The notes below the pieces were generated by a model that ran no database searches, was not told where the DNA came from, and saw only the letters and a list, made by a program, of their open reading frames with translations. From positions 1 to 38,060 of the IMG/VR virus record IMGVR_UViG_3300006810_000134: 38,060 nucleotides of DNA; one strand, given 5' to 3'. Of the stretch, positions 3,912-35,257 are shown in pieces. Position 1 is the stretch's first letter. Each line of letters begins with the position of its first letter. The stretch comes from a virus. Both the position numbers and the translations under genes were made by a program.

Positions 3912-5107
3912 TATTCAGCTACTTCCATATCGATAATATCATCAGTACCACTACTATCAACAAAGGTAAGTTGTAAGGTTGAGTTATCAGTTTTTGCTGG
4001 CATTAATACATCTTGTGTGGTTCCAGAAGTTGTTAATACAGGAATACTTCTAGTGCTAACACCTACAACACCACCACTACCAGAAACTGGGTCTGATGTT
4101 GCTACATTAAAAAACTTATTCCTTAAAGGCACACCAGAATTTTCTCCTAATTTGGTAACTACAGGCACCTTACCTACCATTGATAAAGTTTTAGGTACTT
4201 TACTGTTTACTTTAACAGTTTTTGTTGAAGTATCGGTTATTATACTTATCTGGTCTCTGTCTGTTTTATATCTATTGTCCATTGTTGTTTCATCATCAGA
4301 ATCAACTGTTAATGTATCACTTTCAGCACTTGCTTGAATAGTATTTTGATTAGTACTTGCTATTTGTGAAAAAGCACTTTGATTTAAATCTCCACTTGTA
4401 CTAGCAGCAATAGTTATTTGGTCTGTTGTTGAATCAGAGGTTATAGTAACATTTGAACCTGCAATAAGCTCTACTGTATCTGTTGCGCTATCTGCAACAA
4501 TATTGTTACCACCAGCAGTAATAGTTTTAAATGCATTAGATGCACCACCACCAGTTGAAGATATTGTTATAGTGTCAGTACTACCATTTGTATCAAGTGT
4601 TATACCTGTACCAGCAACAAATGTAAGGGTATCTCCTGTTTGGTCTGCTTGTATAGTATCATCACCAGATACAATAATATTTCCAAATGCTTGTTGTTGA
4701 GTAGGTAAATCAGTCCAAGATACATTTCCATATCCGTCTGTTTTTAGAACTTGATTTGCTGAACCAGTATCCCCATTCAGTTTTAATTTTGCTGATTTTA
4801 AGTCAAAATATCCATCAGTTGTAATCTCTGCACGAATAGTAGAATCTGTTGCAAATATTAATTTTTTAGATGCAACAGTACCAATAACAAAAGGACCATC
4901 TGATATAACTGTTTGACCATCTAAGTATAAATTATAACCAATTTCATCACCATTGCTATCAGTAGTAGTGTCATCAATATGAACTATTGCATTTGATAAT
5001 TGATACCCATGAGGGTCACCATTGCTGTCTAAAGAAAATATATGGTCGTTGTAGTCTGTAGAACCAGCTATTCGCTGGGAAGCATCAAAAGTTGTATCAA
5101 TCGCCAT
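3911..5107 (-). CDS. Tail fibre / minor structural protein
   Basis: A 398-residue protein starts at ATG 5105-5107 inside the 3' end of the upstream small gene (11-bp overlap) and its stop overlaps the next start as TAATG. The N-terminal third has a fibre-type motif, NGDTGSANQVLKTDGYGNVSWTD, which in many phage fibres marks the shaft. The middle carries three degenerate ~48-residue repeats, each with a DTIQA/NIVA element followed by GTGITLDT/GSNVTITS and TDTITIS/TDQITIA (about 4230-4690). The protein is rich in Thr, Ser, Asp and Gly. It probably belongs to the same fibre or tail-tip complex as its neighbours. No enzymatic domain was recognised. Confidence 0.8.
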   Translation of the reverse strand: MAIDTTFDASQRIAGSTDYNDHIFSLDSNGDPHGYQLSNAIVHIDDTTTDSNGDEIGYNLYLDGQTVISDGPFVIGTVASKKLIFATDSTIRAEITTDGYFDLKSAKLKLNGDTGSANQVLKTDGYGNVSWTDLPTQQQAFGNIIVSGDDTIQADQTGDTLTFVAGTGITLDTNGSTDTITISSTGGGASNAFKTITAGGNNIVADSATDTVELIAGSNVTITSDSTTDQITIAASTSGDLNQSAFSQIASTNQNTIQASAESDTLTVDSDDETTMDNRYKTDRDQISIITDTSTKTVKVNSKVPKTLSMVGKVPVVTKLGENSGVPLRNKFFNVATSDPVSGSGGVVGVSTRSIPVLTTSGTTQDVLMPAKTDNSTLQLTFVDSSGTDDIIDMEVAE

Positions 5108-5366
5108 TTAGCACATCATCCTGTATAACAGGTAGTTCACTACCTAATGTGCCTCCATATTGCTTATATAAGTAACGCAATCTTTCTATTTCTGCCTTTA
5201 AAGCTGTAACTGTTTCATACCAATTATCATATTCTGAGTGACCTTTTTCTAATTTATCTACGCAAAGCTCAAAATGTAATTGTTCTGCTTCTGCCATTCT
5301 TGCTAACAAGTATGTTTTTTTAGCTTCGTGGTCCATGAATTGATAGTTTATATCATAATCAGCCAT
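5097..5366 (-). CDS. Small helical protein between fibre genes
   Basis: An 89-residue protein of unknown function, predicted to be largely alpha-helical from its Glu-, Leu- and Lys-rich heptad-like stretch (residues about 12-70). It starts one base inside the stop of the S74 fibre gene and ends with TGA inside the start of the next fibre gene, so it is embedded in the fibre operon. Small helical proteins in this setting can be fibre-assembly chaperones or connectors, but that is inference. The close packing and overlaps with both neighbours support a real gene. Confidence 0.7.
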   Translation of the reverse strand: MADYDINYQFMDHEAKKTYLLARMAEAEQLHFELCVDKLEKGHSEYDNWYETVTALKAEIERLRYLYKQYGGTLGSELPVIQDDVLNGD

Positions 5367-7153
5367 TATCCCTCCAATGCTTCTACTCTAGCAGTTAAAT
5401 CTGAAATCTGTGTGCTTAGTTCTTGTACTGCTTTTACTAATGGTGCTAATAATTGTGAGTAATTCATATTGTAAGAATCAGCTTCGTTATCATAATCTAT
5501 AAGCTCTATATCAATATCTGGTTCTGGTGGTGTTTCAATTAGTTCTTGTGCAATAAAACCCCATAGTTTTTTATCGCCTGTTGTTTTAATTGATATTGTT
5601 TCACATGCACAATAAGTCTTGTCAATTATTACGCCTTCTTCGTTTGTTACATCTTCCCAACAATTTCCACAATTGTCATTTCCTTCTTGTACAATACAAC
5701 CACATATAGTACATTCGTTTTTATATTTAGGTATCCATTCAAATTGAACAGGTCTTAAAGTATTTAAGTAATCTAATCCATAAGGAATATCTTCTATATT
5801 TTCTTTCAATCTTTCATCAGAAGCAGTAGATACACCATTTGAAGCGTATAATCTATTAAACCTATTATCTGAAAAACCTATAAAACCATTACCATCATTA
5901 TCTGTAGGATGAAAAATATTTGAGCCAACATTTATAGTTCCACCAAATGTAGGGGTGCCATTAAAAGTTGTTGTAGTGTTCCAAGTATAATTTTGCCCAC
6001 TTTGTGATATACCATTGTAAAATCTTCCTGTAGTTCCACTACCAAGAGTAATACTACCTCTTAATCCACCTGGGAAAAGTGCTTGTACTGCAGTAGAAGA
6101 ACTAACATGTGTACCACCACCATGAGAAAATGTTATTTCATAAGGGTTTGTATTGACAGATAAAGATATTCCAGAACCAGCTTTAAATTCAACACCATAA
6201 CCAGATAAAACATTTAAATTATTACCATTTCCTTTTAATATCCATTTTTCATAATCATCTAAATTACTATGACTGTGACTACCAATATTCGATATATCTG
6301 ATTCTGTGTGACTATGAGAACTACTTGCAAAACTTGTATGGTCACTATCTGCGTGAGCACCACCAGCAGCAGACCATTCCAGACCATTGGTGGTTCTAGT
6401 TAATACTTCACCAGAAGAACCAAATCCATCGTATACTTTTAAGCTATTTACCTCTATATGTCCATCTACTTCTACATCACCATAAAAATAAACATCATTG
6501 TTTTGTGCGTTAATTCTGTATATATCTACATTTTGGTTTGATATAGTCAATTCATAAATAAATCCTAATGGGTCTGAATTATAACTTCTTCCATCGCTAA
6601 TATTACTATCAGCAATATATGCAGCATTAAATTCTATATCTTGAGTACCAGCACCATCAAATGTTAAGTTAGGGTTTGCTGATGCACCAGATAATACAAA
6701 TTTATCACCAGCACTTACAATTATTTTATTTCCAGAAGAATTAGAATTTAGATATAAGTTGTTGTTAGATTCGTATATTTGAGCAGAACCAATTTGTATA
6801 CTTTGTGTTCCATCACTAGGAACATCGCCCTCACTAGCACCAGATGCTTTAATTCTTATATCAATACTATTAAATTCTGCATCTCCATCTGCACTTATTC
6901 TCCAACCTGAAGTTCCAGATACAAAATTTCCTGCGATAGTTCCATCATTGTTTAGATATATATATTGACCACTAGAATTTTCTGAACGCATATATGTGCT
7001 TCCTAATTCCCAACCTGCAATCTCTCCAGATACAGCTGTTAAGGCACCATCTTTAGTTACAGAAAATACAGGTGTATAACTTAAGCTATCAAAATCAGTA
7101 GTACCACTAACACCAAAATAAAAATTACCATCACTATCTATATGTATTGCCAT
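5366..7153 (-). CDS. Tail fibre with C-terminal S74 intramolecular chaperone
   Basis: A 595-residue fibre. The N-terminal half has beta-rich modules that resemble the C-terminus of the upstream hub protein (SGTSGWRI...AEFN and PVFSVTKDGALTA). The C-terminus matches the peptidase S74 / intramolecular chaperone family: SDERLKENIE at about residue 445 (Ser445 and Lys450 would be the cleavage dyad), RPVQFEW at 467-473, GFIAQEL at 532-538, and a final coiled coil. In this family the domain helps trimerise the fibre and then cuts itself off. An unusual Cys-rich loop is inserted between the RPVQFEW strand and GFIAQEL (Cys481, 484, 486, 495, 498, 515, 517; DNA 5603-5713). That loop looks like a zinc ribbon. 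Its first residues follow the strand directly, so it is an insertion rather than a fusion at the end. Confidence 0.9.
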   Translation of the reverse strand: MAIHIDSDGNFYFGVSGTTDFDSLSYTPVFSVTKDGALTAVSGEIAGWELGSTYMRSENSSGQYIYLNNDGTIAGNFVSGTSGWRISADGDAEFNSIDIRIKASGASEGDVPSDGTQSIQIGSAQIYESNNNLYLNSNSSGNKIIVSAGDKFVLSGASANPNLTFDGAGTQDIEFNAAYIADSNISDGRSYNSDPLGFIYELTISNQNVDIYRINAQNNDVYFYGDVEVDGHIEVNSLKVYDGFGSSGEVLTRTTNGLEWSAAGGAHADSDHTSFASSSHSHTESDISNIGSHSHSNLDDYEKWILKGNGNNLNVLSGYGVEFKAGSGISLSVNTNPYEITFSHGGGTHVSSSTAVQALFPGGLRGSITLGSGTTGRFYNGISQSGQNYTWNTTTTFNGTPTFGGTINVGSNIFHPTDNDGNGFIGFSDNRFNRLYASNGVSTASDERLKENIEDIPYGLDYLNTLRPVQFEWIPKYKNECTICGCIVQEGNDNCGNCWEDVTNEEGVIIDKTYCACETISIKTTGDKKLWGFIAQELIETPPEPDIDIELIDYDNEADSYNMNYSQLLAPLVKAVQELSTQISDLTARVEALEG

Positions 7154-7156
7154 AAA

Positions 7157-10100
7157 TTATCCTATATGTACCGAGCCTGCGTTTATGTTAAGTGTACCAG
7201 CAATTGTTGCACCACTAGCTGTTAACACACCAGAATTTGAAACAGTGAATGGTGCATCTCCATAATTTGCATGACCAAGCCACATATTTCCATTGCTATC
7301 TACATTAAATACTGCGTTACCAGAACCAATACTAATTGTACCTGCTGATAAGTCACCTCTAAATGTTCCATCATTAAACTCTACTGAACCATCTGCATTT
7401 AATTTAAAACCTGCACTACCTTGTGTGTAATTAGCTTGAATGTAAGCATTACCACCATCTATTTCCATAGAGTTTGAATTACCATCATCTGCTGATAGTT
7501 TATCGCTAGCAATTGTCCAACCACCAATATTTCCAGTTGTAGCTGTTACATTACCTCTAAATACTGCATCATTAAATTCTGCATAACCATTGGGATAACC
7601 AGTATCTTGTTTTCTAATTGTCCAACCAGATGTTCCAGCAGAATAATTATCTGATTCAATAAGATTTCCTATTTTTGCATTAGTAATAGCAGCATTAGCT
7701 ATCTTTGCAGTATCAACTGCTAGATTTCTTATTTTTGAAGTTGTAATAGCAGCATCATCAATGTTGGCTGTTAATACTAAAGAAGCACTTGCTTGTTGCT
7801 CTGGAGAAGCATCAGATTCATTACCAGCCAAATCGACAGCAGTAAATCTAAAGAACATTGTATCTGCACTGTCTAAACTTTCTCCTTTAAGTGTAGTAAC
7901 AGCAGGTATTCCTAATCTAAGCATTGAAGCATCTGCTGGTACTTTACCTATTAAAGAACTTTCTCCAACAGTAAACCCAGAAGTAGTAGAACCATAAACA
8001 TTTAAATGTGACAAATCTGATGGCAATGAAAAGTCTGTAATTGCACCAAGTGGATTACCTTGTGCATCAGTAGCAGCACCTAATCTATGGATAACCTGTA
8101 CTGCACCAACAATAGTTGCTAAGGTAGTTGCTTCATCAGGGGTAGGTGGCGTACCAGTATCTACAGCAGTTGTTATAGTTTCAAATACAAAACCACTAGC
8201 AGAACCAGTAGTAATTGCTTGTACGCCAACTTTATAGTCTGTAGCTTGTAATAAATCTTGAACAGTGAATGTAGTATTTCCCCAGTTAATAAAGTAATGC
8301 TCTGTACCACCTAGAGCAGGATTTACTGGTTGAACTGTAATTTCGTATTGTAGACCATTGGTTATTAATGTTCCATCACTATTTCTAGGAACTAACCACT
8401 CAACAAATATTATTGACCTTTGTGTACCTAAAGCATCAGTTTCAAAACCAGTAGTTAACCTAATACCTTCATTATCTGGGTCATCAGGGTCTAATACTTT
8501 ATTTGGTTTGTATAACTTATCACCTGTAGCAGCACCAGATATTTGTGAAGAAAATCTTAAGTCATCTCCAATCTGTTTTCCAATCTCACCAACTTCTAAC
8601 TGTGTATTACCACTTTCCCAAACAACATAATCATTTAAGTCATAGTATTTAACTGCATATGGACTTCTTGAAACAACTTTCCTTAAGTAAACACCAAAGG
8701 TATCTTCTATAGGGTATGTAATTCCTACAATTCTAATTTTTTCTGGATTGATATACTTACCTTGCCAAATTTGTTCGTATGGTTCTGTTCTACCATCTGC
8801 AATTGCTTTAGTTAAATCATCAACAAAACCAATTTCAGGGTCATATACGAATATATTATCTCCTACTTCAAAATCACCTTTTATGTCGTAATATTCAAGT
8901 GACAAAGAAAGAGATTTTTTAATTCTTGTAAATTCATCTAAAAATGCAGATGCTCTTTTAGGTGCTAAGTTTTTAGAAACTTCACTTTCGCTTACATAAG
9001 CAATTCTTTGTAAAGGGTCACCAAATAAATCGTAGTAAGGAACATCAGTCAAAAATCTTTCTATTAAGTCTATGTTTTCTCCATCTGAGCCAACATTTTC
9101 TATATATTCAACACCTGCAACCCAATCTTCTGCTTCAAATTGTGTTGTTAATGCATCAGGATTTAAACCTACAATAGCTGGGTCTTCACCACTACTGTCT
9201 CTTACAATTATTGCTGTAGGAATATTATCTCCATGTCCTATAAATATATTTTCTGGTAATCCTGCATCTAATAAACCATTTGTATTAATTTTATATTCTG
9301 TTTCCATTTGAGACATTACTTTTTTAATTGCTGAATAAGCACTTTCTAAATTATGATTACCAGTGTAGTTGTTGACAGTTTCATCAATATCAGGTGCAGA
9401 TGTTGATGGTGTGAAGTTAGCTGTATAGAGTGCTTCACCTTTTGTAAATTTTAAACCATCTATATAGCCTTTAAAATAATCTGCTTGTTGACTTCTTCCT
9501 ATTGATAAATTCATTGAGGCTCTCTGGTCACCACCAGTTTTAGCATCTCTAGTTGTTCTTTTTATATTTTTATCAGAGTTCCACTCACTTACTTTTGTAC
9601 CATTTTCCCATGTAGTAAATTTATTACCTTTTCTTGTAATTGCCCTATGAACCCATTGACCATTAGCTCTATCACCTAACTTAACACCCTCAGCTATATC
9701 CCATATAGTACTATCAATACCTGTAATTCCATCAATTGTGCTTTCTGCATAATTACTTGTCATCCAAACTTGTAACTCACCAGAACCATTATCAAGTCCT
9801 AATATATAAGGTGGAACAGCACCATCTCCTTGTGCAGCAATTGCAGGTCCATTAGTTGTTGCAGGTCTTACATTTAAATATGTTTGATTACCTTTATACC
9901 ATCTGTTATGTATCTGCCATACTAATGAATAGTATTTTTGATAAAAGGGGTCTTCTTCCCAGTAGTTTGCATTACCAGGGTCTGTATCGTATATAGATGC
10001 ATCTCCTGTGTAATAGAGTGGTATTTGGTCTTCCAATCCTGCTGCTAGTAAAGCTAATATTGTATTACTAACAGAACCAGTAGGAAGTGTCGATGTTATT

Positions 10101-11167
10101 ACATCTACCCATTGAGGTGCATTTGGTCTAGCCATGAAAAAGTCTTGTGGTATTGGTGGACCTTGATACCATTGAGAATTTGTTCTTGGGTCTAATGGTG
10201 TTGCTGTAGGGTTTACATTGCTATTTGCACCAAGCAAGTCATCAATGTCAGCTTGTCTTGCTTTTACCATTGCTTCATCCCAGATAAGTTTTGATTCCCA
10301 TGTAACTTTTACACCATTAACAACTATTGGGTCATAAGCAACTTTAAGATTGTTTGGGTCTGTTCCAGATGGATAATCTGCTGGTGATGGTTTCGCACCT
10401 AAAAACATTAGTGCATAACCAGCGTCATCATATGCACTTAAATCACTTGAGCTTGTAACTGCTGTACCATCTACTTGTTTATATTGATAAACAAAAAAAC
10501 TATTTGAAAAGGCTTCTTTACCTATTTGGAAACATACCAATACCATCATGTCAAAATGTTGTTGAGCTAAAGTATTGTCGTATGGGAATGAGTCTTCATA
10601 ACCATCAAATATATCAATAACTTTATTTTTATAACCTACTAAATCTTCACCTAATAATGTACTAGCAAGAGACTCAGAAAATCTCATGTTGCTATTAGTA
10701 GAATCATCACCAGTATAAGAAACCCTTATTCCTCTTGTGACTACATTTCCACCACTATCTAAATAATTACCACCACTATCTGATGTAGCGTATGTATCAC
10801 CTACTTGTATAGGGAAACTGTAATCAACTGTATTAATTGTGAATGTGTCATTTACATACAGTCCATAAAAATCATAATAGAGGGAGTCTGAACCACGATG
10901 CATAGCACCCTCATTGTTGTAGGTGTGACCATATCCTACTACTAGGTTTCCTCTTACACCATCATGGAAATCTGGGTCAAAAGGTACACGACCACCTACA
11001 CTCTCTGCGAATATTGTTGAACCACTAGGAACAGGGTCGTTGTCTACATAAACACCTTTGACTGGATAACCAGTGTCATAAACAAAAGGAACAAAACCAA
11101 TTCTATCTTTAACAGCCTGAAGCCCATCTGTACTAATGTTTGCATTTGCTAAATCAAATTGTGGCAT
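7157..11167 (-). CDS. Tail hub/tip protein with lysozyme-like N-terminus and half LamG
   Basis: A 1336-residue multidomain protein starting in a TAATG overlap, with AGGGAGG just upstream as ribosome binding site. Residues about 15-260 look like GH24 (T4-type) lysozyme, with VVGYGHT near residue 76 and HFDMMVLVCFQIGKEAFSNS near residue 205. The residue aligned with the catalytic Glu is Ile23, so activity is doubtful. Residues about 430-600 form the second half of a LamG/concanavalin domain (GQWVHRAITRKG, then IGRSQQADYFKGYIDGLKF). Residues about 640-880 read like the central part of an actinophage minor tail/hub protein (INTNGLLDAGLPENIF). FN3-like segments follow to about 1130, then a J-type terminus with repeated AITTSKI/AITNAKI and GTSGWTI modules. 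The N-terminal half of the LamG lies at the end of the upstream gene. A tail-tip role is likely. Confidence 0.82.
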   Translation of the reverse strand: MPQFDLANANISTDGLQAVKDRIGFVPFVYDTGYPVKGVYVDNDPVPSGSTIFAESVGGRVPFDPDFHDGVRGNLVVGYGHTYNNEGAMHRGSDSLYYDFYGLYVNDTFTINTVDYSFPIQVGDTYATSDSGGNYLDSGGNVVTRGIRVSYTGDDSTNSNMRFSESLASTLLGEDLVGYKNKVIDIFDGYEDSFPYDNTLAQQHFDMMVLVCFQIGKEAFSNSFFVYQYKQVDGTAVTSSSDLSAYDDAGYALMFLGAKPSPADYPSGTDPNNLKVAYDPIVVNGVKVTWESKLIWDEAMVKARQADIDDLLGANSNVNPTATPLDPRTNSQWYQGPPIPQDFFMARPNAPQWVDVITSTLPTGSVSNTILALLAAGLEDQIPLYYTGDASIYDTDPGNANYWEEDPFYQKYYSLVWQIHNRWYKGNQTYLNVRPATTNGPAIAAQGDGAVPPYILGLDNGSGELQVWMTSNYAESTIDGITGIDSTIWDIAEGVKLGDRANGQWVHRAITRKGNKFTTWENGTKVSEWNSDKNIKRTTRDAKTGGDQRASMNLSIGRSQQADYFKGYIDGLKFTKGEALYTANFTPSTSAPDIDETVNNYTGNHNLESAYSAIKKVMSQMETEYKINTNGLLDAGLPENIFIGHGDNIPTAIIVRDSSGEDPAIVGLNPDALTTQFEAEDWVAGVEYIENVGSDGENIDLIERFLTDVPYYDLFGDPLQRIAYVSESEVSKNLAPKRASAFLDEFTRIKKSLSLSLEYYDIKGDFEVGDNIFVYDPEIGFVDDLTKAIADGRTEPYEQIWQGKYINPEKIRIVGITYPIEDTFGVYLRKVVSRSPYAVKYYDLNDYVVWESGNTQLEVGEIGKQIGDDLRFSSQISGAATGDKLYKPNKVLDPDDPDNEGIRLTTGFETDALGTQRSIIFVEWLVPRNSDGTLITNGLQYEITVQPVNPALGGTEHYFINWGNTTFTVQDLLQATDYKVGVQAITTGSASGFVFETITTAVDTGTPPTPDEATTLATIVGAVQVIHRLGAATDAQGNPLGAITDFSLPSDLSHLNVYGSTTSGFTVGESSLIGKVPADASMLRLGIPAVTTLKGESLDSADTMFFRFTAVDLAGNESDASPEQQASASLVLTANIDDAAITTSKIRNLAVDTAKIANAAITNAKIGNLIESDNYSAGTSGWTIRKQDTGYPNGYAEFNDAVFRGNVTATTGNIGGWTIASDKLSADDGNSNSMEIDGGNAYIQANYTQGSAGFKLNADGSVEFNDGTFRGDLSAGTISIGSGNAVFNVDSNGNMWLGHANYGDAPFTVSNSGVLTASGATIAGTLNINAGSVHIG

Positions 11168-11859
11168 TACGCCTCCCTATATTCCCACCATTCAATAGTA
11201 AAGTCTTCACTTTCTAATTGAAAATGATAGGAATAGTCGACTTCTAAATAAGACCTCTGACCATCAAGATATAAACTTGTTGCACCAAACTTTTTTTCTG
11301 TGTCGCTTAACTTAGCAGTTCCATAAAATTCAACATCATGTTTTCTCTTTGTTGCATCTGTTGTTTCTGTATCATTATTTGAACCATCAAAATTTAAAAG
11401 TAAATCAGTACTTTCTTTACTAGGATTAGTAATAGTTCCTGCTCGTATAGCTCTCTTACCACCTGTTTGACCATCTCTAAGCAAACCATATGGCTTACCA
11501 TCTTCATAATTATCTAAAACATATTCTAAAGATTTATTAGTGTACTTTCTCATATCAGATACACCACCTTGGTCAGATATTGGCAATCCTCTAGTGTCGC
11601 CATCTCCTAAATAAATTCCTAGACCAGAACCATTTATTTCAATAGAATCATCACCTAAACCAAGTCCAGTAATAACACCTACATAGTCTGCACTATTAAG
11701 CATTGCACTATCGTTTAATTCAGACTCTGCAACTCTTTGTGGAATAATAACAATTTGGTCCCATGCATCAATAGTATTTAATATTGAATTAGGTGTTTTG
11801 TTATAATCTAATTGTAGATTGAAACTACCTTGAGCCATTAATTTTTCTGTTACTGACAT
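11167..11859 (-). CDS. Tail hub/minor tail protein N-terminal part, ending in half a LamG domain
   Basis: A 230-residue protein. Residues 1-150 resemble the start of actinophage minor tail proteins of the Gp37-like type (short beta-rich domain with DAWDQIVIIP, then SLEYVLDNYEDG). From about residue 150 (DNA 11170-11412) the sequence is the N-terminal half of a LamG domain: LLLNFDGS, KFGATSLYLDG, then SEDFTIEWWEY. A typical LamG then continues for about 100 more residues, but here the ORF ends five residues later at TAA. The missing half is found around residue 430-600 of the next gene. The gene pair therefore looks like one ancestral hub gene that was interrupted. The end also carries the AGGGAGG ribosome binding site of the next gene. 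Confidence 0.78.
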   Translation of the reverse strand: MSVTEKLMAQGSFNLQLDYNKTPNSILNTIDAWDQIVIIPQRVAESELNDSAMLNSADYVGVITGLGLGDDSIEINGSGLGIYLGDGDTRGLPISDQGGVSDMRKYTNKSLEYVLDNYEDGKPYGLLRDGQTGGKRAIRAGTITNPSKESTDLLLNFDGSNNDTETTDATKRKHDVEFYGTAKLSDTEKKFGATSLYLDGQRSYLEVDYSYHFQLESEDFTIEWWEYREA

Positions 11860-32722: not shown

Positions 32723-35257
32723 TTAAGGTGTGTTTGGGTTCTCTACTTCATTATTTACTTCAGCCATCTGTTTTTTAGATGAGAGTGGATGACTTGAAGG
32801 CAATAAATCAGTATCGTATGGCTTTCTCTTAAACTTCTCATTTTTCAAAGCATACAAGAACCCATTAACTCGTGCTAATCCCCATTGTTCTTCAGAATTA
32901 ACACTTGGTCTTACTGAACTAGGGTTAGTTCTATAAGCACCTACACCCCTATTAAAAACTGATACTAACATTCTCTTTGTTGCTTTATATTTTGGATTAC
33001 TAGAATTATGGTCTTCGACTTTTTTATCTAGTGCTTTAGAGATTGCAGTAGTAACAGCTTTAGAACTTACTTCATCAGCAATTTTCATTGCTAATTCTCT
33101 AGCTTCTTTTCTTCTAGCATTAACAACTTTTTTCTGGTCGTTAATTACTTTCTTCATAGCAGGAACACCCATGTTCAAAACACCACCCCACTTAATTGCG
33201 GCAACAACACCAGCTAATCTGTTATTGTTTTGATGTCTTCCCATAAAGCGTTCTCTTCTACGAACCCAGCTAAGTACTGATTCACTTCTATCACCAGATT
33301 TATATTTAGACCATCTAGCAAATGCATCATTACCTGTAAATGAGGTTGGTGGGTTTCCACCATTACCACCTCTTCTCCATATTTCTGGGTAATCTTCTTT
33401 CAAACTTTTAGCGTATCCAAAAGGAAATTGTTTGTATTTAGAATTAGAAAGAGAAACTTGTTGGTCATCACCAGGGCTTGGAAAATTTGTCCTATCTTTC
33501 ATTGGTTTTTCCTTTTTAATATTTTCTGGCTCTGTCTCGAATATTTGCTCCATAAGTACTTCAGCTTCCTCTACGCTAACTTTTAACTCTTCTACAATAC
33601 CATCTATGTATGATTTTTTTGTTCTTTCAAAACTCTCGTGAGAACTACAAGGCATGTAGTAAGTCATATCTTCTATTTTGTGTGTATGAAAACCTGAACA
33701 ACCAATTTGTTCTGCTCTTCTTTCAGCAGCTTCCTGTGTTGTAAACATCCACATATTTCTTGATGGTGTAAATGTAACAGCTTGTCTTGTGGTTTCAGGA
33801 ACTGCATCTACAGTATCCATTTTTGCATCAAATAATTCTCTTAATAATTTAGCTTCGTAGCTAGCTTCACTACTAGCAGCTTCAACTAATTGTCCAGCTT
33901 GTGGGTCGTTGTTTCTAGTATTTTCTTGTTCTTCTGTAGGTTGTGGTGCTTCACCATCTACAGGAACTTGTAACATATTCATTGGTCTTAAATAAACATT
34001 ATGCTTTTCATCAACTTCTAAGCCAACTACTTTTCTAGCTTCGCCTATAGTTATCCAACCACCAGCTACACCCATGTTAACTCTTTTATATAAGTCATCC
34101 ATGTCTGTTTGTAAAGCTCTTACATTTTGAATGTCGTAATCACAAGTTTGACCAGTATCTCCAAAATCAGGAATAAGTAATTGATGTGTTAATTCATTAG
34201 CAACTGTTTTCCATAATGGAACTAATCTCTGCTCAGTAAAGAACTCTCTTAGTTCAGCAGTATTGTTATATGTCGCTGCGTCCAAACCAGCTCCGAGTCC
34301 AGCGAGAATTGCTGGGACACCTAAAACAGCAGAAACTCTTTCTTCTGGAAGTTTTCTTAATTCAGTTAACTTCATTTGGTCAGGAGAAAAAGAAACAACT
34401 TCAACATTCATTGAGCCAGATAACACCATTGGTGCACCTCTGTTTTTACCACCAAACTTTTGTTTGTAAAGTTCAGCAATAGCTTCTGCTTCTTCTCTAG
34501 TAGGTCCACCCATTGCATCATTTCTTGGAGAGAGAACTACGCCTGGAACAGCTAAGTTTGTTAATAATGCAGTGGTGTATTGACCTGCTGCTTCATCACC
34601 TAATAATTCACGCAGAATAGATTTAAGTGGTGCATGACCTCTTCTGTGGTCATTTGGGTCAATACCTTGTCTAATATGAATAATATCTTTAGGGTCAATT
34701 TTTACAGGCTCACCAGATGTTGCATTTTTTTGTGACGCATAATATTCGTAATGTGTAATTAATTTAGAAGTATTACCTCTTACATCTACAAGTCCTGGCA
34801 TTAAAGGAACAAGTGCAACTACTTTACCATTTGCATTTCTGTTTTTAAAAATAAAAGCATCACCATGAGCATTTAAAGATAAAACAATGTAGTGTGACAA
34901 AAGACTTGATGACATAAATTCATTAGGTCTTCTATATAGTTCAGTAACTGGGTGTTTATAATCTACTTCTCTGTCACCAAATACTTGGTCTCTTTTTACA
35001 ATTTGTAATGCTGGTTCAGCGAAAGAGGTAGCAAGTACATTTAAACATGCGACCACAGCGGAGTTTGCTGTACCATCACCAATTTCTTTTAATTCTGCTG
35101 TTTCCCAAAAGCCTGCTGTTGTGTTATATCCATAAACTGAACTATCTCTACTTGATGCAAGGCTTTGATTGTAACTAGCCATTTTCCTAAGCGATGCTTC
35201 GCTTGGTCTATTTAAGTATTCCGTTGCTCTTTGTAAAAAACTTTTATTCTCTGCCAT
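32723..35257 (-). CDS. Portal protein with extended C-terminus
   Basis: 844 residues starting in TAATG. Residues about 1-430 are an HK97-type portal: NSAVVACLNVLATSFAEPAL near the start, HPVTELYRRPN, KDIIHIRQGIDPN, SAVLGVPAILAGLG, and TYNNTAELREFF with the stem/crown helix after it. Portals of this type usually end near 400-500 residues. The extra 400 contain a short segment with AEQIGCSGFHTHKI and YYMPCSSHESF, a module with YPEIWRRGGNGGN, FARWSKY, RERFMGRHQNNNRLAGVVAAIKWGG, and a final module with FNRGVGAYRTNPSSVRPSV and WGLARVNGFLYAL. Similar segments occur as separate ORFs or portal tails in other environmental phages. Their function is unknown, and a role in minor capsid or packaging is inferred. 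Confidence 0.9.
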   Translation of the reverse strand: MAENKSFLQRATEYLNRPSEASLRKMASYNQSLASSRDSSVYGYNTTAGFWETAELKEIGDGTANSAVVACLNVLATSFAEPALQIVKRDQVFGDREVDYKHPVTELYRRPNEFMSSSLLSHYIVLSLNAHGDAFIFKNRNANGKVVALVPLMPGLVDVRGNTSKLITHYEYYASQKNATSGEPVKIDPKDIIHIRQGIDPNDHRRGHAPLKSILRELLGDEAAGQYTTALLTNLAVPGVVLSPRNDAMGGPTREEAEAIAELYKQKFGGKNRGAPMVLSGSMNVEVVSFSPDQMKLTELRKLPEERVSAVLGVPAILAGLGAGLDAATYNNTAELREFFTEQRLVPLWKTVANELTHQLLIPDFGDTGQTCDYDIQNVRALQTDMDDLYKRVNMGVAGGWITIGEARKVVGLEVDEKHNVYLRPMNMLQVPVDGEAPQPTEEQENTRNNDPQAGQLVEAASSEASYEAKLLRELFDAKMDTVDAVPETTRQAVTFTPSRNMWMFTTQEAAERRAEQIGCSGFHTHKIEDMTYYMPCSSHESFERTKKSYIDGIVEELKVSVEEAEVLMEQIFETEPENIKKEKPMKDRTNFPSPGDDQQVSLSNSKYKQFPFGYAKSLKEDYPEIWRRGGNGGNPPTSFTGNDAFARWSKYKSGDRSESVLSWVRRRERFMGRHQNNNRLAGVVAAIKWGGVLNMGVPAMKKVINDQKKVVNARRKEARELAMKIADEVSSKAVTTAISKALDKKVEDHNSSNPKYKATKRMLVSVFNRGVGAYRTNPSSVRPSVNSEEQWGLARVNGFLYALKNEKFKRKPYDTDLLPSSHPLSSKKQMAEVNNEVENPNTP

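Follow-up and report, generated by a model that had tools for sequence, protein, structure and literature searches.

Two adjacent open reading frames (ORFs) in a 38-kb virus contig very probably encode one tail-tip hub that is made as two chains after nested insertions. The contig is IMG/VR virus record IMGVR_UViG_3300006810_000134; its whole stretch of 38,060 nucleotides was analyzed and is referred to here as the window. Both ORFs lie on the minus strand, the first at 11167-11859 (230 aa) and the second at 7157-11167 (1336 aa), and the stop of the first overlaps the start of the second by one base in the sequence TAATG. The 230-aa product ends in ...SEDFTIEWWEYREA followed by the stop, right after the first half of a sugar-binding-type LamG domain; this endpoint and the overlap, both described in an initial annotation of the window, are seen directly in the sequence. 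The ORFs belong to a tail gene block of an uncultured tailed phage, composed of a minor tail protein, a tape-measure-sized ORF, the hub, and a fiber with an S74 chaperone, and the terminase, portal, protease, and capsid genes lie upstream of this block. The minus-strand order is a 1790-aa ORF, a 449-aa ORF, the two hub ORFs, and the S74-bearing fiber ORF, which places the hub after the tape measure. The portal protein (window 32726-35257) carries C-terminal extensions that match DUF3721 and, below the cut-off, DUF5824. The features of the hub locus are as follows.

11431..11859, minus strand: front of the tail hub (hubN, residues 1-143 of the 230-aa ORF), from identity to relatives and the predicted hub fold
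11176..11430, minus strand: first LamG (ConA-like) half, residues 144-228, running to ...DFTIEWWEYR, from alignment, PHROG, and a relative's model
11172..11178, minus strand: Shine-Dalgarno-like AGGGAGG ahead of the second start, within the final codons of the 230-aa ORF, from the sequence
11165..11169, minus strand: TAATG stop/start overlap, from the sequence
10388..11167, minus strand: predicted GH24 (T4-type lysozyme) fold module, ≈residues 1-260 of the 1336-aa ORF, from Pfam PF00959, Foldseek, and a residue table
9866..10387, minus strand: linker of the insert, residues ≈261-434, leading back to LamG; found in split phages only, with low model confidence
9368..9865, minus strand: second LamG half, residues 435-600, starting PATTNG, from Laminin_G_3, alignment, and a relative's model
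8561..9367, minus strand: rear of the tail hub (hubC, residues 601-869), contiguous with hubN in hub-only contigs
7160..8560, minus strand: fibronectin-III and tail-tip fiber part of the same polypeptide, from Pfam fn3 and Phage_Tail_Tip

The fiber downstream of the hub is also split, in that the end of the 1336-aa ORF and the start of a 595-aa ORF share the same kind of motif (window 7120-7200). This repeat motif forms the end of the 1336-aa ORF, and the matching parts are joined within one 1797-aa ORF of the relative L021 (6001-11394). The second ORF of the split phages L057/L194 and L059/L196 is much longer (1582-1797 aa) and continues into fiber sequence.

Neither the 230-aa ORF nor the hub part of the 1336-aa ORF has a Pfam match up to E 1, and the hub of the single-ORF relatives has none up to E 0.1. 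The hub fold was read from a model of a hub-only relative, L065 (residues 1-406, pLDDT 80.9), which matches the tail hub of Haloferax tailed virus 1 (HFTV1; 9h4p) at Z 19.9, Mu gp44 (1wru) at 18.6, the phage 80alpha hub (6v8i) at 17.4, and T4 gp27 at 12.9. The hub parts of the window are 42-56% identical to the hub-only clade of L065, and hubN is 47-94% identical to the split relatives and 35-56% identical to hub-only or hub-LamG single-ORF relatives. The window hub is thus predicted, by way of the modeled relative, to have a gp27/gp44-type fold. The HFTV1, Mu, and 80alpha hubs share the fold of L065 (Z 17-20), and L065 itself lacks both the LamG and the lysozyme, whereas the window has both and is split. 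The initial annotation had read these parts as two halves of one Gp37-like tail protein. They are indeed one hub, contiguous in relatives, but the Gp37-like name finds no Pfam or PHROG match, and the predicted fold is of the gp27/gp44 type.

To place the split arrangement among its relatives, IMG/VR viral contigs were scanned with the hub parts, and three architectures were found. The simplest is the hub alone, with hubN (1-141), a linker of 6-10 residues, and hubC in one ORF (48 contigs and 3 distant ones). Another 22 contigs encode the hub with an intact LamG in a single ORF, the LamG spanning ≈residues 147-362 (N part up to 227, C part from 229). The split form is found in 26 contigs in addition to the window, and all 27 phages, each of which carries the lysozyme module, have the identical break: the first ORF ends in EWWEYR plus 2-5 residues and a stop, and the ATG of the second overlaps by one base or follows no more than 8 bases on. 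The borders of both insertions can be read from these architectures. The empty hub site GTITEP-SGT-YTGKH corresponds to the filled site GTITNP...NNYTGNH, and in the L065 model, the insertion point falls in the loop between strands 137-141 and 148-152; within the LamG, the intact sequence EWWEYRTSSSGNPT is interrupted in split phages as EWWEYREA and a stop on one side and RPATTNGPA on the other. The nested insertion proposed in the initial annotation is therefore directly borne out by the existence of hub-only, hub-plus-intact-LamG, and split phages whose borders match. Close relatives are all split, and uninterrupted genes occur in more distant ones. Sequencing error, misassembly, or chance as the source of the break is ruled out by the 26 further contigs.

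A scan with the profile of the lysozyme module returned split contigs only, yielding no donor or free-standing relative, and the linker segment of the insert is likewise restricted to split phages. Among the relatives scanned, none was found to carry the lysozyme in an unsplit gene. Because both this intermediate and a donor are missing from the scans, the details of the last insertion step are those that we infer. Recent foreign DNA was also considered as an origin of the segment and rejected, as its GC and third-position GC resemble those of the flanks. A search for a host gave no relative of the hub in bacterial and archaeal genome contigs or in the phage isolate collection, the terminase matches phages and archaeal viruses at only ≈24-28%, and no defense-system match was found.

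A tree built on the hub sequences without the inserts places the split phages in one clade (100/100) and the intact-LamG phages in another (100/100), with the split clade sister to a hub-only clade (99/93). Given this sister relationship, the LamG was either gained before both clades and then lost or gained twice. The LamGs of the split and intact clades form one group to the exclusion of eight other phage LamGs (100/99, with few outgroups and long branches), a result that favors one gain or a transfer between clades. The lysozyme-plus-split step needs only one origin. Values of dN/dS are 0.04-0.21 in hubN, both LamG halves, the lysozyme module, and hubC (four pairwise comparisons, one cell saturated), indicating that all modules, including the degenerate lysozyme, are under purifying selection.

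Several lines of evidence identify the sequences on either side of the break as parts of one LamG domain. Residues 146-228 of the 230-aa ORF match LamG-bearing phage families (PHROG 24074, E 5e-17), the profiles of which run on past the end of the match, and the first half aligns to residues 149-227 of the intact LamG in single-ORF relatives. The 1336-aa ORF scores only 19.8 bits against Laminin_G_3 in Pfam, below the cut-off, because just half of the domain is present; the intact LamG of the relative L133 scores 63 bits. When placed end to end, the halves align over the break with the intact LamG of unrelated phages (≈27-31% identity, E 1e-14 to 1e-24), including that of Synechococcus phage S-SKS1 (30%), and with the intact LamG of hub relatives as well. 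For a structural view, we used an AlphaFold2 model of the split relative L041, in which only a single TGA separates the in-frame ORFs; this TGA was read as Trp to give one chain. This model, built from 53 aligned sequences, has a mean pLDDT of 69.8 and a pTM of 0.41; its LamG segments are mostly at pLDDT 75-94 with two weak loops. Within it, ConA-like domains are matched at Z 17-19 by ≈195-200 residues, the first and last of which are 148 and 828; for AbnA domain 4, the match takes in 196 of its 206 residues. As the second half holds at most ≈170 residues, both halves are needed for one complete sandwich. The model thus predicts that the two halves form a complete LamG/ConA-like sandwich in the read-through single chain of L041, in line with the earlier suggestion that the parts complete one LamG. 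Many of the solved structures among the ConA-like matches are binding domains of clostridial toxins; a toxin relation of the LamG was rejected, as these matches reflect the common fold.

The start of the 1336-aa ORF scores 22.1 bits against Phage_lysozyme (PF00959), borderline to the cut-off of 22.3, and the relatives L021 and L032 score above it. Foldseek matches the module in the L041 model to the SpmX muramidase (6h9d) and a phage endolysin with TM 0.73-0.79 by target length, and we assign the module a GH24 fold on this modeled basis. A GH24-like module of ≈430 residues had been proposed at first; the lysozyme fold holds, but it covers only ≈residues 1-260 and is followed by a linker of ≈170 residues before the LamG resumes at 435. 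We located the catalytic positions by alignment to P22 and SpmX-type lysozymes and across the module in the 27 phages. The Glu, Asp, and Thr are kept in 14 of the phages and replaced by Ile, Thr, and Val in the window. The window's subclade, 12 phages in total, carries Ile or Val, Thr or Ser, and Val at these positions, and the one further phage has Val, Asp, and Arg. In the latter (L202; contig IMGVR_UViG_3300017767_000081, module 5001-6551), the Glu and Thr have changed and the Asp is kept, apparently a second, independent loss; this module (L042) also has an EF-hand-like motif close to its end. The triad-intact phages lie outside and beside the window's subclade on the hub tree, and the catalytic set was therefore probably lost twice. 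The term lysozyme unit used in the initial annotation is apt for the fold but not for the activity in the window's subclade, where all three catalytic residues are replaced and the module, judged by these residues, is probably no longer an enzyme. Since dN/dS of the module is still 0.07-0.14 within this subclade, a noncatalytic role is probable.

The junction between the ORFs bears on how the product is made. Across the 27 phages, the stop-to-ATG gap is -1, 1, 4, 6, or 8 nt, all three frame relations occur, and the frame relation differs between close relatives. Programmed frameshifting or stop read-through could join the ORFs, with mainly one long chain made, and four of the phages (the contigs of L041, L025, L016, and L017) do have both ORFs in the same frame, separated by one or two stops. 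The variation in frame means, however, that neither process can be the shared mechanism, and the ATG of the conserved MPQF start is always present after the junction. No RNA family was found at gathering score in Rfam, and an astrovirus frameshift-element match, sub-threshold and ≈1.2 kb from the junction, was treated as chance. We regard this explanation as very improbable. Less probable still, to the point of being nearly negligible, is an explanation of the 1.3-kb segment as a self-splicing intron or intein, with the LamG and hub produced as an uninterrupted chain. The segment does sit exactly within a conserved domain, as such elements do, but no Rfam intron family was found at gathering score (two sub-threshold matches were treated as chance), and no intein, splicing, or endonuclease domain was found in Pfam. 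Moreover, in all contigs that extend far enough, the lysozyme frame continues without a stop into the second LamG half, and the segment is under purifying selection, with the catalytic residues kept in 14 phages.

In our preferred reading, the two chains would be initiated separately. An AGGGAGG-type site is found in the window and in L002/L012, L004, and L007. The initial proposal that the lysozyme unit came with its own ribosome binding site fits these near relatives but not the more distant split relatives, which have no good site. Because only some of the split phages have a good Shine-Dalgarno site at the second start, equal dosage of both chains is not assured.

We propose that the ancestor was a single-chain gp27/gp44-type hub followed by a fiber and that a LamG domain entered a hairpin loop of this hub, after GTIT[EN] and before YTGKH. 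Next, in the lineage leading to the window, a GH24 lysozyme unit would have entered the LamG after ...EWWEYR, bringing a start codon, leaving a stop before it, and being joined in frame to the second half of the LamG. The ribosome would end the first ORF and restart at once on the second, giving 230-aa and 1336-aa chains in roughly similar amounts; for overlapping phage genes, it is established that termination and restart within -1 to +8 nt yield similar product amounts. As each chain is without the rest of two folds, the two should pair, through the common LamG sandwich and the common hub fold, and would in this form enter the tail tip. The lysozyme-fold domain would leave the hub through the LamG and be carried outside the hub ring. 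In triad-intact phages, it may act as a tail lysozyme that probably cuts peptidoglycan during entry, and in the window's subclade, it is probably structural or wall-binding.

It is also conceivable that both chains are virion proteins that act apart, the 230-aa protein being hub-associated with half a LamG and the second chain folding alone. The genes are, after all, separate in each of the 27 phages. Each chain, however, contains only portions of two domains that relatives have in one piece, the break crosses the LamG core, the L041 model completes one sandwich, and both halves are conserved. We therefore consider separate action unlikely and favor two chains that pair. Only tentatively do we suggest that the virion protein is obligately built from two complementing chains, with the split kept across a diverse clade because it is itself useful, for example by giving the lysozyme-fold domain a free N-terminus or by letting the LamG open at the break during DNA ejection.

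We found no description of this split-hub arrangement in the open-access literature that was searched. The closest precedent is the genes-in-pieces of T-even-type phages, as one gene of the relatives here corresponds to two conserved ORFs owing to an insert. Examples are the Aeh1 nrdA split by mobE, the T4 topoisomerase gene 60 with mobA, and 43A/43B of Aeromonas phage 25; Aeh1 NrdA retains full function despite the split, 43A and 43B co-purify, and in phages with mobE after nrdA, the stop and start overlap as UAAUGA (PMC2988022). As in the window, a conserved gene is present as two ORFs because of an insertion, and in those known cases the products reassemble. The insert in those cases is a selfish homing endonuclease (or other insert) present as its own gene in an enzyme, whereas in the window, a lysozyme-fold domain is fused to the downstream half, in a structural tail protein and within an already inserted domain. 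In T4, a trimeric gp27 hub is linked to the lysozyme at the tail tip, and gp5 ends up as more than one chain (PMC3004832). A gp27-type hub is thus linked to a lysozyme domain in both systems, and more than one chain results. The T4 lysozyme, however, is part of a separate OB-fold/needle protein cut by proteolysis after translation, whereas the lysozyme-fold domain of the window lies within the LamG of the hub, and it is the gene itself that is cut.

Present-day relatives preserve the steps by which a structural gene gains a domain within a domain and then becomes two genes. Selfish homing endonucleases are usually held responsible for split phage genes; the wedge here is a functional domain, the catalytic residues of which were later lost in one branch with the split retained. 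The case allows a direct test of whether a broken β-sandwich is built from two chains within a tail, and it also allows one to ask why a dead tail lysozyme is kept. For annotation pipelines, it serves as a warning that the 230-aa ORF would appear as a small hypothetical protein. The SpmX muramidase domain, among the top Foldseek matches, has a GH24 fold like that of the module and is a phage-type lysozyme turned to another role. SpmX is a bacterial cell-polarity protein, whereas the window module belongs to a phage tail, and all three of its catalytic positions have changed. LamG is also associated with wall-degrading functions in Erythrobacter phage vB_EliS-L02 (L207), where one tail protein holds several LamG domains and is followed by a further LamG gene and a gene for an amidase.
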